Source: Gammaproteobacteria bacterium
GTDB lineage: Bacteria; Pseudomonadota; Gammaproteobacteria; Pseudomonadales; Azotimanducaceae
DNA: 50,858 bases
NCBI GenBank assembly: GCA_028824555.1
Contig: JAPPDJ010000166.1
Location: 1-50,858, forward strand
Direction: 5' to 3'
Both the position numbers and the translations under genes were made by a program. Under the pieces are notes generated by a model. The model did no database searches. It was not told the DNA's origin and worked only from the letters and a program-made list of their open reading frames with translations. Shown piece by piece: positions 34,802 to 41,851 of the stretch (positions within the stretch are counted from its first letter, which is position 1; every line of letters begins with the position of its first letter).

Positions 34802-35554
<753 letters not shown>

Positions 35555-35615
35555 GCTATTCTGCATCAAGTCACGCATCGCCTGCGCGGCTTGCGGAGCG
35601 CTCCTCTTCTTCCAT

Positions 35616-38600
35616 TCATGCGGTTAGCTCAACCTTGGCGGCTGCCGGCTCCGCCACGTCGATGCCAGCCCGGCGCAGCACTTTGGCGAGCCTGTCGTCC
35701 ACCGGCTCGGCGAATTGCATGGCGATTTCGAGGTACCAGACGTCCTTCAGCAGCGAGCCCCCAGCCCCATTCAGTTGCCGGAGCTTGCCGGCATCCTTCT
35801 CCGTCACCACCACCACCATCTCCGACTCTGTCGCGAGGTCTCGAGCCTTGAAGCGATGATGATCCGGGAATGTCCGCATGGTGGGCGCAAGTCCGAGTCC
35901 GCGCAGCGTCTCGTGGAAGCGATCCGGATTGCCGATGCCTGCCACCGCGAGCACGGGCTTGAGCTCCCTCGCTACCCACTGCTCCGGCGCCACGCGTTCG
36001 CCGCTGCCGAGGTTCACGAAGGCCGTGGGTACGGCCACCATCACCGATTCATCCGCCACCAGCCCGGAAGCGACGCCGTTCGCCACCACCCAATCGCATT
36101 CCGTCAGCCGCGATGGCGGCTCGCGCAAGGGCCCCGCCGGCAGGCACAGGCCGTTGCCGACGCCACGAGCCCCGTCCACAACGGCGATCTCGACTGTGCG
36201 CGCCAGCGCATAGTGCTGCAAGCCATCGTCGGCAATCACCACGTCCACCGCTTGCCGCTGCAACAACGCCTGCACGGCCCGCACTCGGTCGGGATCCACA
36301 ACTACGGGGCACTCGGCGCGCCGAGCGATCAGGCCCGCCTCGTCGCCGCACTGTGACGCCGGCGTGTCGGCATCGACGAGCAAGGGATAGGAAGCCTTGC
36401 CGCCATACCCCCGGGAAACCACACCCACGGACATGCCCCGCTCTTTGAGCCAGCGGGCGAGCCAAATCACGAGCGGCGTCTTGCCGGTGCCACCGGCGGC
36501 AATGTTGCCCACAACCACAACCGGCGCCGGCGCCCGCCAGCCTGGCTTGCGCCCGGAGAGGAACCGCTGCCGACGCCGCATGGCGTGGCGTCGGAAGGCC
36601 GCCCCGAAGGGGGCCAGCAAACGAACCCAGCGCTGGTCGCCATACCAGGCTTCCACCAGGCCCCCGAGCCGTCCCGCCGGCTGGGGAGGCGCGGAATCGC
36701 CCTGCGCCACCGATTTGGGCCGGACAGCTTCCCCCTCGCCGCCGAACTGCGACCGATACAGCCCCGCGTATGCGCCGCTCGCCTGCAGCAAGTCCTCGTG
36801 GCGCCCGGATTCGACGATGCGCCCATCCACCACCACCATGATCACGTCGGCGCGTTCGATGGTGGACAGGCGATGGGCGATGACCAGGGTCGTGCGCCCT
36901 TCCATCACCTCGTCGAGGGCGGCTTGAATCTCCCGTTCCACGTGCGCATCGAGCGAAGAGGTGGCCTCGTCCAGAATCAAGAGCGGCGCGTCCTTGAGCA
37001 AGGCGCGGGCGATGGCCACCCGCTGGCGCTCGCCGCCGGAAAGCCGCGCCCCATCGTCGCCCACCGGCGTGTCCCAACCTTGCGGCAGCGCATCCACGAA
37101 TTCCTCCGCATGGGCGCGCCGAACCACGGCACGGATTTGCGCGTCCGAAGCCGCCGCTAGGCGACCGTATGCAATGTTGTTGCGCAGCGTGTCGTTGAAG
37201 AGCGTCACGTTCTGGCTCACCAGACCAATCTGTTCGCGCAGGCACGCTAGGCGATAGTCGGCGAGCGCCACGCCGTCGAGCAGGATGCGGCCGGCTGTGG
37301 GTTCGTGGAAACGGGCGATCAGGCTCGCAAGAGTGCTCTTGCCGCCACCGGAAGGGCCCACCAGAGCCACGGTCTGCCCTGGCGCCACGTCGAAGCTGAT
37401 GTCGGTGAGGGCATTGCCGAGATCTTCCCGATAGGCAAACGAAACTCCTTCGAAGCGCAAGGCCCCTTCCACGCGCCGGACTTCCAGGGTGCCGTCGTCC
37501 GTCTCCTGCGGCTGGTCGAGTTGGGCGAAGATGTCCTCGGCCGCCGCCAACCCCCGCTGCAAGCGCGAGTTGACGTCCGACAGCCGCTTGATGGGATTGG
37601 CGAGCATCCCCGCGAGGCCGAGATACGTCACGAGTTCACCTGTGGTCATCTGTCCGGCCACTTCCGGCTGGAACAGGAGCGCCACCAGCCCCGCCAGCGC
37701 CAGCGCCGCGATCACCTGAATGAGCTGTGTGCTGGCCGCCTTGGTGGCAGTCATCTTCAGGTTCTGGCGACGGTTGGTTTCGCTCGCGGCGACAAAGCGT
37801 CGCCGTTCGTACTCCTCGCCGCCGAAGACGCGCATCTCGCGGTAGCCCGACACGGCCTCCGAGGTCACCTGCGTGACATCGCCCATGGACTCCTGAATGC
37901 GCTCGCTGATGCGCCGGAAGCGGCGCGAGGCGAAGCGGACGATGAGCGCCACAACCGGCGAGATGAGCAGGAAAATGAGGGTGAGGCGCCAGTTGAGGAA
38001 GACCATCCCGGCCAGGAAGACGACCACCTTGAGGCCGTCCTGCACGAGAATCTTGAGGGCGTCGGTGGTGGTGTCGCGCAGCTGCGCCGAGTTGTAGGTG
38101 AGGCGGGAGACGACGTGGCCTCGCTCGGTGCCGTCGAACCACTTGCTCGGCATCACGAGCAGCCGCTCGAACAGGCGGCAGCGGATGACGTGGATCGCGC
38201 GGAAGGAGATGCGCGAGAGCAGGTACTCCCCGGCCACCGAGCCGATGGCGCGCACGACGGCGAGGAAAAGCATGAGGCCCGGCAGCAGCCAGAGGAGGTC
38301 CCCAGCACTCCTGCCCCAGCGTTCGGCCAGCCCCATGAGTGCTCCGGCAAGTCCCCCTACCTCGGCCCCGGCCGGCTGGAACGCGTCCACGACGAGGCCA
38401 AAGACGGCGGCGAAGCCGCCTTCCCCGGCCGCCGCAAGCAGAAAGCCGAGCACGGCAAGGGCGAAGTAGCGCTTCTGATCTGCAACGTGGCCGAGAAGCC
38501 GACGGTATATGCGCCAGTCGCTGCCGGCAGCCGGCAGGGCCGCGGGTACGGTCCCGGCTTCCGGAGCGGCCTCGCTTCGCCCTTCGCTCACGGCGCGAGG

Positions 38601-38624
38601 GAACTCATGCCGCGGCGACGGCAT
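35616..38624 (-). CDS. msbA-lpxK: MsbA-LpxK fusion: lipid A flippase joined to tetraacyldisaccharide 4'-kinase
   Basis: One uninterrupted 1002-residue frame. Residues about 35-628 are an MsbA-type ABC exporter: six-helix membrane domain, Walker A GPSGGGKS (423-430), signature LSGGERQRVAIARALL (from 528), Walker B LLILDEATSSLD (from 548). A linker of roughly 28 residues (EGEAVRPKSVAQGDSAPPQP) contains no stop. Residues from about 655 are LpxK, starting with a canonical amphipathic region, WRAPAPVVVVGNIAAGGTGK (P-loop, 706-716), GVVSRGYGGKASYPLL, DDGLQHYALAR (799) and MAGIG-like VAGIGNP. LpxK phosphorylates the 4' position of the lipid A precursor; MsbA flips the finished lipid A. The ATG at 38624 overlaps galU by 20 bases. 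GTG codons at the linker could allow internal initiation of LpxK. Confidence 0.9.
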   Translation of the reverse strand: MPSPRHEFPRAVSEGRSEAAPEAGTVPAALPAAGSDWRIYRRLLGHVADQKRYFALAVLGFLLAAAGEGGFAAVFGLVVDAFQPAGAEVGGLAGALMGLAERWGRSAGDLLWLLPGLMLFLAVVRAIGSVAGEYLLSRISFRAIHVIRCRLFERLLVMPSKWFDGTERGHVVSRLTYNSAQLRDTTTDALKILVQDGLKVVVFLAGMVFLNWRLTLIFLLISPVVALIVRFASRRFRRISERIQESMGDVTQVTSEAVSGYREMRVFGGEEYERRRFVAASETNRRQNLKMTATKAASTQLIQVIAALALAGLVALLFQPEVAGQMTTGELVTYLGLAGMLANPIKRLSDVNSRLQRGLAAAEDIFAQLDQPQETDDGTLEVRRVEGALRFEGVSFAYREDLGNALTDISFDVAPGQTVALVGPSGGGKSTLASLIARFHEPTAGRILLDGVALADYRLACLREQIGLVSQNVTLFNDTLRNNIAYGRLAAASDAQIRAVVRRAHAEEFVDALPQGWDTPVGDDGARLSGGERQRVAIARALLKDAPLLILDEATSSLDAHVEREIQAALDEVMEGRTTLVIAHRLSTIERADVIMVVVDGRIVESGRHEDLLQASGAYAGLYRSQFGGEGEAVRPKSVAQGDSAPPQPAGRLGGLVEAWYGDQRWVRLLAPFGAAFRRHAMRRRQRFLSGRKPGWRAPAPVVVVGNIAAGGTGKTPLVIWLARWLKERGMSVGVVSRGYGGKASYPLLVDADTPASQCGDEAGLIARRAECPVVVDPDRVRAVQALLQRQAVDVVIADDGLQHYALARTVEIAVVDGARGVGNGLCLPAGPLREPPSRLTECDWVVANGVASGLVADESVMVAVPTAFVNLGSGERVAPEQWVARELKPVLAVAGIGNPDRFHETLRGLGLAPTMRTFPDHHRFKARDLATESEMVVVVTEKDAGKLRQLNGAGGSLLKDVWYLEIAMQFAEPVDDRLAKVLRRAGIDVAEPAAAKVELTA

Positions 38625-39444
38625 CGCGTCGGCGCAGGGCATAGCAGTGGTTGGTGGCTGCGACGAAGCCATCGAGGGTGCCGCAGTCGAAGCGGCGGCC
38701 CTTGAACTTGAGCGCCACCACCCGCCCATCTTGCGCTTGCTCACGCAGCGCGTCGGTGATTTGGATCTCGCCGCCGGCACCCGGTGACGTGGCTTCGATC
38801 AGGCCGAAGATGTCGGGGGTGAAGATGTAGCGACCGACGATGCCCAAGGTGCTCGGTGCGTCGTCCGGCGCCGGCTTCTCCACCATATCGGTGACCCGAA
38901 GGGTGTCTTTGTCGATCTCTGTGCCAGCCACGATGCCGTAGCGCGACGTGGCCTCGCGCGGCACGTCTTCGACGGCCACTACGCTGCATCCGTGCCGCTC
39001 GAACACCGGCGTCATCTGCTCCAAAACTCCGTCCGGTTCGTGCAGACACAGATCGTCCGGTAGCACGGCCGCAAATGGCGCCTCGCCGATCAGCGGCTGT
39101 CCGCACAGAATCGCGTGCCCAAGCCCGAGCATCTGCCGCTGTCGCAACCAGGAGAAACGGCAGCTGTCGAGCAGCGCTCGGATGCCCTCCAAGCGTCCTT
39201 CAGCCGCCGAACCCAGGACCCGGCGTTCCACGTCCGGCACATCGTCAAAGTGATCCTCCATCGCGCCCTTGCCGCGCGCCGTGACGAACGCCATGTGCCG
39301 GATGCCAGCCGCCGCCGCCTCCTCCACGCCATACTGGATGAGGGGCTTGTCGAGAATGGGCAGCATCTCCTTCGGCACCGCCCGCGTCGCCGGCAAGAAC
39401 CGCGTGCCGTAGCCGGCCACCGGAAACAGGCATTTGGCAATCAT
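38605..39444 (-). CDS. galU: UTP-glucose-1-phosphate uridylyltransferase
   Basis: Makes UDP-glucose from UTP and glucose-1-phosphate for exopolysaccharide, LPS or trehalose; 279 residues, cytosolic. The nucleotide site is CLFPVAGYGTRFLPATRAVPKEMLPILDKP. YGVEEAAAAGI, GLGHAILC, PDDLCLH, VEDVPREATSRYGI and the end GRRFDCGTLDGFVAATNH are family-typical. I chose the ATG at 39444 where homology starts; nine more residues would be read from the in-frame start at 39471. TATAAT on the minus strand lies about 40 bases upstream. Its 3' end overlaps msbA-lpxK by 20 bases, suggesting one operon with it and kdsB. Confidence 0.95.
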   Translation of the reverse strand: MIAKCLFPVAGYGTRFLPATRAVPKEMLPILDKPLIQYGVEEAAAAGIRHMAFVTARGKGAMEDHFDDVPDVERRVLGSAAEGRLEGIRALLDSCRFSWLRQRQMLGLGHAILCGQPLIGEAPFAAVLPDDLCLHEPDGVLEQMTPVFERHGCSVVAVEDVPREATSRYGIVAGTEIDKDTLRVTDMVEKPAPDDAPSTLGIVGRYIFTPDIFGLIEATSPGAGGEIQITDALREQAQDGRVVALKFKGRRFDCGTLDGFVAATNHCYALRRRDAVAAA

Positions 39445-39485
39445 GGCGGCAGTGGCCACGCCGGCGCCCACGGGGCGTCGAGGCG

Positions 39486-39562: not shown

Positions 39563-41851
39563 TCAATCCCTCTGCAGGAGCACCACCGACTCTACGTGGG
39601 GACGCAGTTCCTCCCACTCGAACCGCACGGGTTTCATCTTGCGCTGGCTCGTCAGGAGCTCAGCCTGGTCGTCGGCATGGCGGGACTCGGGGTCGTCGCT
39701 GATACCGGGGTTCTGCAGCGAGTGGGAGCGGATTCCTCCGGGGGAGTAGAAATCGAGGCGCATGATCCGGGAGCCGACAAACGCGACCCATTTCTCGAAA
39801 CTGCGTGGCCTGTACGAGACGGCGAACAAGGTGGTCGGGCAAAAATACACCGGCCCCATGTCGCAGTCCCGCCATTGGTCCTTGACATGGAGTGCCCCGC
39901 CCGGGGCGATGCGTCCGCCGGACATGGGCCAGTCGCGCCCTTCCCGGCCGCCGACGCGGAACTCGTCGCCATACCGGCGGTCGAGGCCGTGGGGCATCGT
40001 GGCCATCCGCGCCGCGGCGTCCTCGAGACCGGCAACCATGGCGCGCATGACGCCGCCGTCGGGCGGCATTCCCCGCTCGATCACGTCGCGCAGCATGTAG
40101 CGGTCGAAGCCGGCGAGCGAGGTGCGCAGGCTTTCGCGCCAGTACAGATACTTCAGCGCCGCCGTGGACTCGGCGTCGAGGTGGCCGTCGAAGCTCAAGA
40201 GATCGTCCGCAAAGTGCCGCACGTCGGGGGAAAGACCCGCGTCCTTGAGGCCCGCGCGGAGTGGGGTGATGAATCGCTCCCAGCCCAAGCTCAGCGTGTC
40301 GAAGGCGAGTGCAAAGGCATCGGCTTCGGTCATTTGCTCCGTCTCTGACAACACGTCAATGGCGCGCTGGCCGCGGCTGTTCGGCCCCGTGGTATAGCCC
40401 GCGGTAAGCAGGTAAGTCGGCTTTCCGTGCGTCTGCGGCGGCGGCCTCGTGTCCATGAAGGCGGGGGCAACGTTGTTGTTCTGCAGGTAGCCGGTCGCCG
40501 GGGACCGGATGACGAGGAGATCCTCGACCTCGTGGATGCCCTGCCAAGCAGTGGCGCTGCTGTTGCCGTCCACCGGCCGCAGCCAGTCGATGTCGGGGTC
40601 CGGGCGAACAGGGGTCATGCCGGCGCGAACGTAGAGGATGTCGCCGTTGCGGTCGGCCGCGAGCAAGTTCTGCGGGAACATCCAGCCGGTGCGCTGGGCG
40701 TCGAAAAACTCGTTGACGCTGGTTGCCATGTTCATGGCCCGAGCGACGTTGGCGAGCCCTTCAAGGTTGGCGTAGTACGGCGTGCTGACGACCCAAGCTC
40801 GGTCACCGTCGCGCGCCACGACCGGCGACGGCACCTCGTTGTGGTCCGTGTACTCAGCCGTCACGGTCAACGGCTCGCGGTCCTTTACGGCAATGGTGAT
40901 GGTCCTTTGGACGAAAGCCCTCTCAACGCCGTCAAAAAGATACTTGCCCGGATCGCCCTCAACCGTCGCAATCTCGTAGCAGTCGGCGACGTCCGGCGAC
41001 CCGGTCGTCAGGCCCCAACCTACATGGCGGTTCCTGCCAAGGAACAGCGCCGGACCCAGCGCATATCCGGTGGCGTGGAACTCGCCCGCGTGCATGACGT
41101 ACTCGTAGGTGAAGCGCCCGTCCATGCCACCGTGCGGGTCGGTCAGGAGGATCGCGCCGCCGGTCGTCGTACGGCTCGGCATCACCGCCCACTGGTTGGA
41201 TTGCGTGCCGGGCATCGAGGCGGTGAGCTCGGCCGCCGTTCGCACCTGCACGCCGCCCCGCCGGCAATCGTTGACTCCGATGCCGGCGCTGTAGTCACTC
41301 CAGAGCAGCCCCAGTGGCGCCGCGATCAGGTCCGCAATCCCGATGTCCGCAGGTGCCCATTGGGGTACGCGATTGGGGTGGTCCGCGAGGTAGGCGTTGA
41401 TCCCGTCGACGAAGCCGGCGTAGTTTCGGCGCACCTGCGGGTGGAGCCCATCGACCGCCGCCTCGGCGTGGGAACGGAGATTCCAGAGCCTCGCCTGGTA
41501 ATCCACTTCCACCGTCTGCTCGACGGAGAGCGGCCCCATGATGTGCCACGGCAGCGCGCCTGGCTCGATGTGCTGCGCGACGGTGCCGCGCGCGGCATGG
41601 ATCGACAGCAGGAACCGCTCGAGTTGGTCGCTCGCGAGGGCATAGGCAAGGCCGAAGTAACCGTTCTCTTCGACTTCGGCATAGACGTGCGGGACCCCCC
41701 ATCCATCCCGATAGATGGCCACCTCGCCGGCCCCCGGATACGGATCCGCCGGCTCAAGAGTCTCGTCCGCGGTCGCAACGACGCCCGCGATGCAGCCCAA
41801 GGCTGCCAATAGGCCCCAGTTGAGGCTGGTCGGGAGCATGGCGAGACCCAA
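39563..41851 (-). CDS. penicillin acylase family hydrolase (Ntn type)
   Basis: A 762-residue exported protein: signal peptide (LLAALGCIAGVVA), then an alpha-subunit region from AGEVAIYRDGWGVPHVYAE. The maturation and catalytic site is GTQSNQWAV with the N-terminal nucleophile Ser218 (the SNxW motif). Autocleavage before Ser218 is expected, leaving a spacer and a large beta chain of about 540 residues. YLQNNNVAP and later PHGLDRRYGDEF match the penicillin/AHL acylase group. The substrate could be a beta-lactam, an acyl-homoserine lactone or an acyl-peptide. It is a single gene upstream of galU on the same strand. Its 5' region abuts a long non-coding stretch. Confidence 0.88.
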   Translation of the reverse strand: MGLAMLPTSLNWGLLAALGCIAGVVATADETLEPADPYPGAGEVAIYRDGWGVPHVYAEVEENGYFGLAYALASDQLERFLLSIHAARGTVAQHIEPGALPWHIMGPLSVEQTVEVDYQARLWNLRSHAEAAVDGLHPQVRRNYAGFVDGINAYLADHPNRVPQWAPADIGIADLIAAPLGLLWSDYSAGIGVNDCRRGGVQVRTAAELTASMPGTQSNQWAVMPSRTTTGGAILLTDPHGGMDGRFTYEYVMHAGEFHATGYALGPALFLGRNRHVGWGLTTGSPDVADCYEIATVEGDPGKYLFDGVERAFVQRTITIAVKDREPLTVTAEYTDHNEVPSPVVARDGDRAWVVSTPYYANLEGLANVARAMNMATSVNEFFDAQRTGWMFPQNLLAADRNGDILYVRAGMTPVRPDPDIDWLRPVDGNSSATAWQGIHEVEDLLVIRSPATGYLQNNNVAPAFMDTRPPPQTHGKPTYLLTAGYTTGPNSRGQRAIDVLSETEQMTEADAFALAFDTLSLGWERFITPLRAGLKDAGLSPDVRHFADDLLSFDGHLDAESTAALKYLYWRESLRTSLAGFDRYMLRDVIERGMPPDGGVMRAMVAGLEDAAARMATMPHGLDRRYGDEFRVGGREGRDWPMSGGRIAPGGALHVKDQWRDCDMGPVYFCPTTLFAVSYRPRSFEKWVAFVGSRIMRLDFYSPGGIRSHSLQNPGISDDPESRHADDQAELLTSQRKMKPVRFEWEELRPHVESVVLLQRD

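Follow-up and report, generated by a model that had tools for sequence, protein, structure and literature searches.

A single open reading frame joins MsbA and LpxK in the gammaproteobacterial family Azotimanducaceae and in SAR86

MsbA and LpxK are both essential and well studied as antibiotic targets and, to our knowledge, have always been treated as separate proteins. The locus described here, on contig JAPPDJ010000166.1 of an Azotimanducaceae genome, raises the question of whether the two are made there as one protein, and what such a joined state would mean. The window is the whole stretch of DNA that was analysed, 50,858 nucleotides; the nearest named genome, SB0665_bin_27, is presumably of sponge origin. 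The fused gene and its parts lie as follows.

35616..38624 (-), msbA-lpxK fused gene, 1002 aa: a single open frame, with the MsbA and LpxK families above their cut-offs in one protein
36744..38519 (-), MsbA part, aa 36-627, with the six transmembrane helices and the ATPase domain (TIGR02203 at aa 39-627; match to 9bd6)
37332..37358 (-), Walker A of the MsbA part, GPSGGGKST, aa 423-431 (from the sequence)
36669..36743 (-), linker, aa 628-652 (pLDDT <50; raised dN/dS)
36558..36665 (-), N-terminal helix region of the LpxK part, aa 654-689 (predicted helices; aligned to about residues 6-40 of E. coli LpxK)
35670..36656 (-), LpxK kinase part, aa 657-985 (PF02606, TIGR00682, match to A. aeolicus LpxK)
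36480..36509 (-), P-loop of the LpxK part, GNIAAGGTGK, aa 706-715 (from the sequence)

The frame runs from an ATG at 38624 to a stop at 35616-35618 without an internal stop, and in none of 2000 base shuffles of this stretch was the open frame retained. The NCBIfam MsbA equivalog TIGR02203 matched aa 39-627 with 696-698 bits, exceeding its cut-off of 602; the enterobacterial MsbA equivalog NF008381 stayed below its cut-off (561 vs 867). Pfam placed ABC_membrane at aa 57-344 and ABC_tran at 406-556, and an LSGGE signature and a Walker B motif are also present in the MsbA part. In the second half, PF02606 (LpxK) matched aa 667-983 with 337 bits (cut-off 27), TIGR00682 (LpxK) gave 246 bits (cut-off 92), and the A. 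aeolicus LpxK structures 4ehw/4ehx were matched with an E of 6e-23. Thus the open frame and the two family assignments bear out the original prediction of one 1002-residue MsbA-LpxK frame, and Walker A, LSGGE, Walker B and the LpxK P-loop are all present as it described them. In a fold search the best solved structure was 9bd6 (P. aeruginosa MsbA), with 48% identity over the model; the top 50 rows of that search were all MsbA structures and were uninformative on the LpxK half.

To ask if both halves have kept their key residues, the fused protein was compared with E. coli K-12 MsbA (b0914) and LpxK (b0915), whose numbering is used here. The LpxK catalytic and lipid-contact residues were named for the A. 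aeolicus enzyme (PMC6286764, in the part cited) and were transferred by alignment. Equivalents of LpxK K61, D108, E109, D147, D148, H152, R84, R127 and H264, which cover the P-loop lysine, the Walker B aspartates, the D-H pair and the lipid-contact arginines and histidine, are all found in the window. Across 112 fused LpxK sequences, a set that includes the window and counts some genomes twice, the equivalents of the catalytic and lipid-binding residues were kept in 111-112, and that of K61, the P-loop lysine, in all 112. All 33 full-length fused relatives keep the equivalents of MsbA K382, S378, S482, E506, H537 and R78; the window likewise keeps those of K382, S482, E506 and H537, which represent the Walker A, signature, Walker B, catalytic glutamate and H-loop positions. 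We take R78, R148 and K299 of E. coli MsbA to be lipid A phosphate contacts; the window keeps R78 and K299 and has Q at the R148 position, where the 33 relatives have R (14), Q (14) or other residues (five). Compared with its nearest relative, L073, the window protein is 93% identical in the MsbA part and 87% in the LpxK part, and dN/dS was 0.08 for MsbA and 0.18 for LpxK, against 0.62 in the linker of 26 residues. By these comparisons both halves are complete and under purifying selection, and both are probably active; with the catalytic residues kept, the claim that the gene is intact and not a product of decay held up.

A single-chain AF2 model, made from 15 sequences, had a mean pLDDT of 73.6 and a pTM of 0.46, at which the placement of the MsbA and LpxK halves relative to each other is not fixed. 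In the model aa 628-652 are unordered (pLDDT <50), and the LpxK part opens with helices at 654-661 and 665-689, in a block with a pLDDT of mostly 77-88; these predicted helices may correspond to the N-terminal amphipathic helix that LpxK needs for activity. The linker is about 25-30 residues long in the window protein and is held within a narrow range, 23-28 aa, across 35 SAR86 fusions.

The same architecture was then sought in other genomes. An LpxK match was found in 183 of the 206 genomes of the window's family. Among the 150 family matches listed, 122 had LpxK frames of at least 900 aa; 48 of the 122 were inspected and all 48 were fused, as were G018, G022 and G036, which lie outside the 150. 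Seven single-contig genomes of the family carry the fusion. The 28 shorter frames among the 150 divided into 15 with separate genes, seven that are still fused at the junction (G030, G112, G123, G172 and G195, which lie at contig edges, the frameshifted G079, and G092, whose MsbA is interrupted by a stop) and six uninformative ones at contig starts. Nine of the 15 belong to genus g8, of which six were inspected and all were separate, and five belong to g51, with four clear separate pairs and a fifth, G103, in which only part of the msbA frame was seen; the last is G062, with MsbA apparently deleted. With 15 of the 150 listed frames separate, the fusion is dispensable, a point against the bifunctional reading given below. 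In G062 the LpxK frame (L062 2788-3898, + strand) begins with an MsbA-like N-terminal stretch, the remaining MsbA being missing, and a search of that genome gave no MsbA above its cut-off; the gap is either an internal deletion of the fused gene or an assembly fault. The LpxK frame of L062 lies downstream of galU- and exbB/exbD-like frames, named by eye.

Some relatives have no LpxK. Seven of these, from four genera (G025, G028, G067, G099, G117, G119 and G121, i.e., members of g11 and g14 plus G099 and G117), were searched for LpxC, which was missing in all seven, and for MsbA, which was above its cut-off in none of the seven; whole branches of the window's family seem to have lost the lipid A pathway. 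In G091, G101 and G204 LpxC was present and no LpxK was found.

SAR86 is a major surface-ocean group, and all seven named SAR86 loci were fused. The order of G734 was equated with SAR86 on the basis that G1037 coincides with the named locus L078 by contig position. LpxK was found in 122 of the 151 genomes of this order; 116 of the 121 matches listed had frames of at least 900 aa, and all 37 loci inspected were fused. The five short frames were two fused pieces, one bare LpxK at a contig edge, and two frames starting at contig starts. No separate msbA/lpxK pair was seen among the 121, three of which lie at contig edges and are uninformative. In G1032, a SAR86 genome outside the 121, LpxK is broken into three stop-containing pieces (G1032:C1:459263-460107). 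A third lineage, f119, has the fusion in three of its four genomes. Thus the single case seen earlier is now a trait of the window's family and of SAR86, with a further independent origin in f119. The conditions named as refuting the original prediction, a stop or frameshift at the linker or separate genes in close relatives, did not refute it: same-genus genomes are fused, and the seven single-contig genomes carry the fusion.

Genomes outside the family and SAR86 were judged only where they were among the matches listed: the order and class surveys took in the best ~150 of 383 and the best ~150 of 356 matching genomes, and SAR86 was not among the best ~150 of the class survey. In a phylum survey with the whole protein as query, the window alone among the matches listed spanned the full query without a stop; since this survey displays the known fusion G652 as its MsbA half only, its result is compatible with other fusions in the phylum. 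The long LpxK frames of G296 (968 aa), G893 (950) and G736 (687) were rejected as fusions because they overlap msbA in another frame, and G1356 and G1430, suspected from their frame lengths, proved on inspection not to be fused.

How often the two genes were joined was addressed with an LpxK tree and a joint MsbA+LpxK tree, both quick searches with SH-aLRT support only. The joint tree used 74 of 79 rows, leaving out the long-branched L200 and L029 and any row in which no MsbA lay next to LpxK. In it the separate genes of g8 are nested within fused family members (support 100 and 99), and the f119 fusions lie among separate genes labelled Chromatiales and Piscirickettsiaceae (99 and 96); at least five state changes are required. 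A single origin for all fusions, f119 included, was rejected (AU p 9.5e-6), and the family and SAR86 as one clade was not (p 0.47). On these trees the fusion arose at least twice, and the g8 genes were probably re-split secondarily. The g51 loci (L057, L059, L060 and L061) have separate, overlapping msbA and lpxK. In the tree of LpxK alone the g51 sequences are placed with Halomonadaceae (88), in the joint tree elsewhere; the fused gene may have been replaced in g51 through transfer. In G240 and G359, of the window's order, msbA and lpxK lie in one frame with a single stop codon between them, so that little separates the fused and the separate states.

The fused gene is flanked as follows.

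38605..39471 (-), galU, directly upstream, with a 20-base overlap with the fusion start (TIGR01099 338 bits, cut-off 327; stop at 38605)
34802..35578 (-), kdsB (Kdo supply), directly downstream (TIGR00466 251 bits, cut-off 155)

Upstream of galU a 762-aa frame at 39563-41851 (-) is penicillin acylase-like by eye, and gave no NCBIfam match at 1e-30. The fused gene is the sole LpxK match in the window genome, in which no second copy was found, and of 47 MsbA-like matches there it is the one above the MsbA cut-off, the next best having 456 bits. The genome also has one LpxC, WaaA and two matches to LpxL-type acyltransferases, and the lipid A pathway is therefore expected in it. Given a sole LpxK and a sole above-cut-off MsbA, any lipid A made there must depend on the fused copy for both activities.

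We consider it quite probable, from the sequence evidence, that the gene specifies one bifunctional kinase-flippase made as one chain. The MsbA half would dimerise and flip core-lipid A at the inner membrane, and each MsbA C-terminus would bear a complete LpxK on a flexible linker of 25-30 residues at the cytoplasmic face, i.e., there would be two tethered kinases per flippase dimer. The fusion would have originated when a stop codon was lost between adjacent, co-transcribed genes, and would have been retained for a 1:1 ratio and for bringing the final indispensable step of synthesis to the exporter. We infer the uncut protein, the two-kinases-per-dimer geometry and the benefit; that the benefit is one of fixed ratio and location has about an even chance of being right. 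The E. coli msbA and lpxK genes are co-transcribed (PMC4412817 and PMC10328246, in the parts cited). The cited part of PMC4412817 also puts E. coli LpxK at an estimated level of about two copies per MsbA; a 1:1 ratio is thus not the usual situation.

The possibility has to be weighed that being joined makes no difference in itself, a stop having been lost between overlapping genes with both enzymes still working. The four-base overlap of msbA and lpxK in E. coli, the one-stop spacing in G240 and G359, the poorly conserved linker and the return of g8 to separate genes would all fit such a neutral event, but the fusion has been kept across the SAR86 order and most genera of the window's family, and arose independently at least twice; neutrality is a plausible explanation, though short of an even chance. 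Nor need fusion of the genes mean fusion of the proteins, if LpxK is also or mainly made separately, by internal initiation or by linker cleavage. GTG codons in the linker had been put forward as possible LpxK starts, and the linker, disordered in the model, could perhaps be cut. To look for such starts, the stretch 35-75 codons before the P-loop was scanned, fused genes with a non-fitting P-loop pattern being left out. An in-frame ATG was present in 22 of 56 family, seven of 37 SAR86 and two of three f119 fused genes, but in none of the 96 was such an ATG accompanied by a Shine-Dalgarno-like site, and 17 of the 37 SAR86 genes had no ATG, GTG or TTG in the stretch at all. When any start codon (GTG, TTG) was allowed, seven of the 96 had one with a weak Shine-Dalgarno-like match. 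The scan is crude: 68 of 93 separate lpxK genes had an ATG in the stretch, and the ATG test, with the Shine-Dalgarno-like site, scored only 16 of the 93. The GTG codons of the window are indeed there, 67 and 49 codons before the P-loop, but lack a Shine-Dalgarno-like site. The scan favours a single chain, and a separately made LpxK appears unlikely.

It was also proposed that LpxK and MsbA act consecutively and that the fusion might channel lipid A. In direct channelling the kinase would hand lipid IVA to its own flippase. The physical linkage would suit such a transfer, as would the binding of lipid by LpxK at the membrane face and the ability of E. coli to export lipid IVA under some conditions (PMC6286764, in the part cited). 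The premise of consecutive action fails, however: LpxK yields lipid IVA, on which WaaA, LpxL and LpxM then act before MsbA flips core-lipid A (PMC12444477, in the part cited). All 14 genomes searched, among them six of the family and six of SAR86, have matches to WaaA and to LpxL-type acyltransferases, two of the SAR86 LpxL matches containing stops, and kdsB, for Kdo, is the next gene. Since these intermediate steps lie between LpxK and MsbA and their genes are present, direct channelling is very doubtful. A bolder form of the single-chain reading would place the fused protein at the centre of a complex for the terminal steps of lipid A assembly, with LpxK holding WaaA/LpxL at the flippase, or with kinase occupancy gating the ATPase of the flippase; either way, synthesis and export would stay in step. 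This is improbable; if true, small-genome ocean lineages would control lipid A flux via architecture and not via LpxC proteolysis. As for an assembly artefact or a decayed gene, the window genome is a draft of 182 contigs, but the architecture recurs in many independent genomes, including seven that are single-contig, and both halves are under purifying selection, so this is scarcely credible.

Set against known systems, the first 630 residues of the fusion resemble MsbA (E. coli b0914, P. aeruginosa 9bd6) in sequence, motifs and fold; unlike E. coli MsbA, the protein continues at its C-terminus into a kinase and, in the window, has Q at the R148 position. With LpxK (E. coli b0915, A. aeolicus 4ehw/4ehx) it shares the whole kinase, the N-terminal helix region and the catalytic residues, but the fused LpxK has no ribosome-site-like start of its own and is tethered to MsbA. 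The E. coli ycaI-msbA-lpxK-ycaQ operon is similar in gene order, in co-expression and in having kdsB downstream in the neighbourhood (PMC10328246, in the part cited). In contrast to the fusion, the E. coli pair, with its four-base overlap, specifies two proteins. An LpxC-FabZ fusion exists in Bacteroidota, and it too joins an essential lipid A enzyme to the enzyme of a neighbouring gene, but it involves other enzymes, early soluble steps and no transporter. The MsbA-LpxK fusion combines two known families in a new architecture; the original prediction knew of no described case, and a search of open-licence papers likewise found none.

A natural fusion that is conserved in SAR86 and has at least two origins would mean that LpxK is functional when attached to the exporter. 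It provides a ready-made construct for asking if export is physically coupled to the final required step in making lipid A, and the fused and re-split states are two genomic markers for lineage tracing. Two LpxC matches above the cut-off were seen in each of G012, G013, G062, G071 and G082, the window genome having one.
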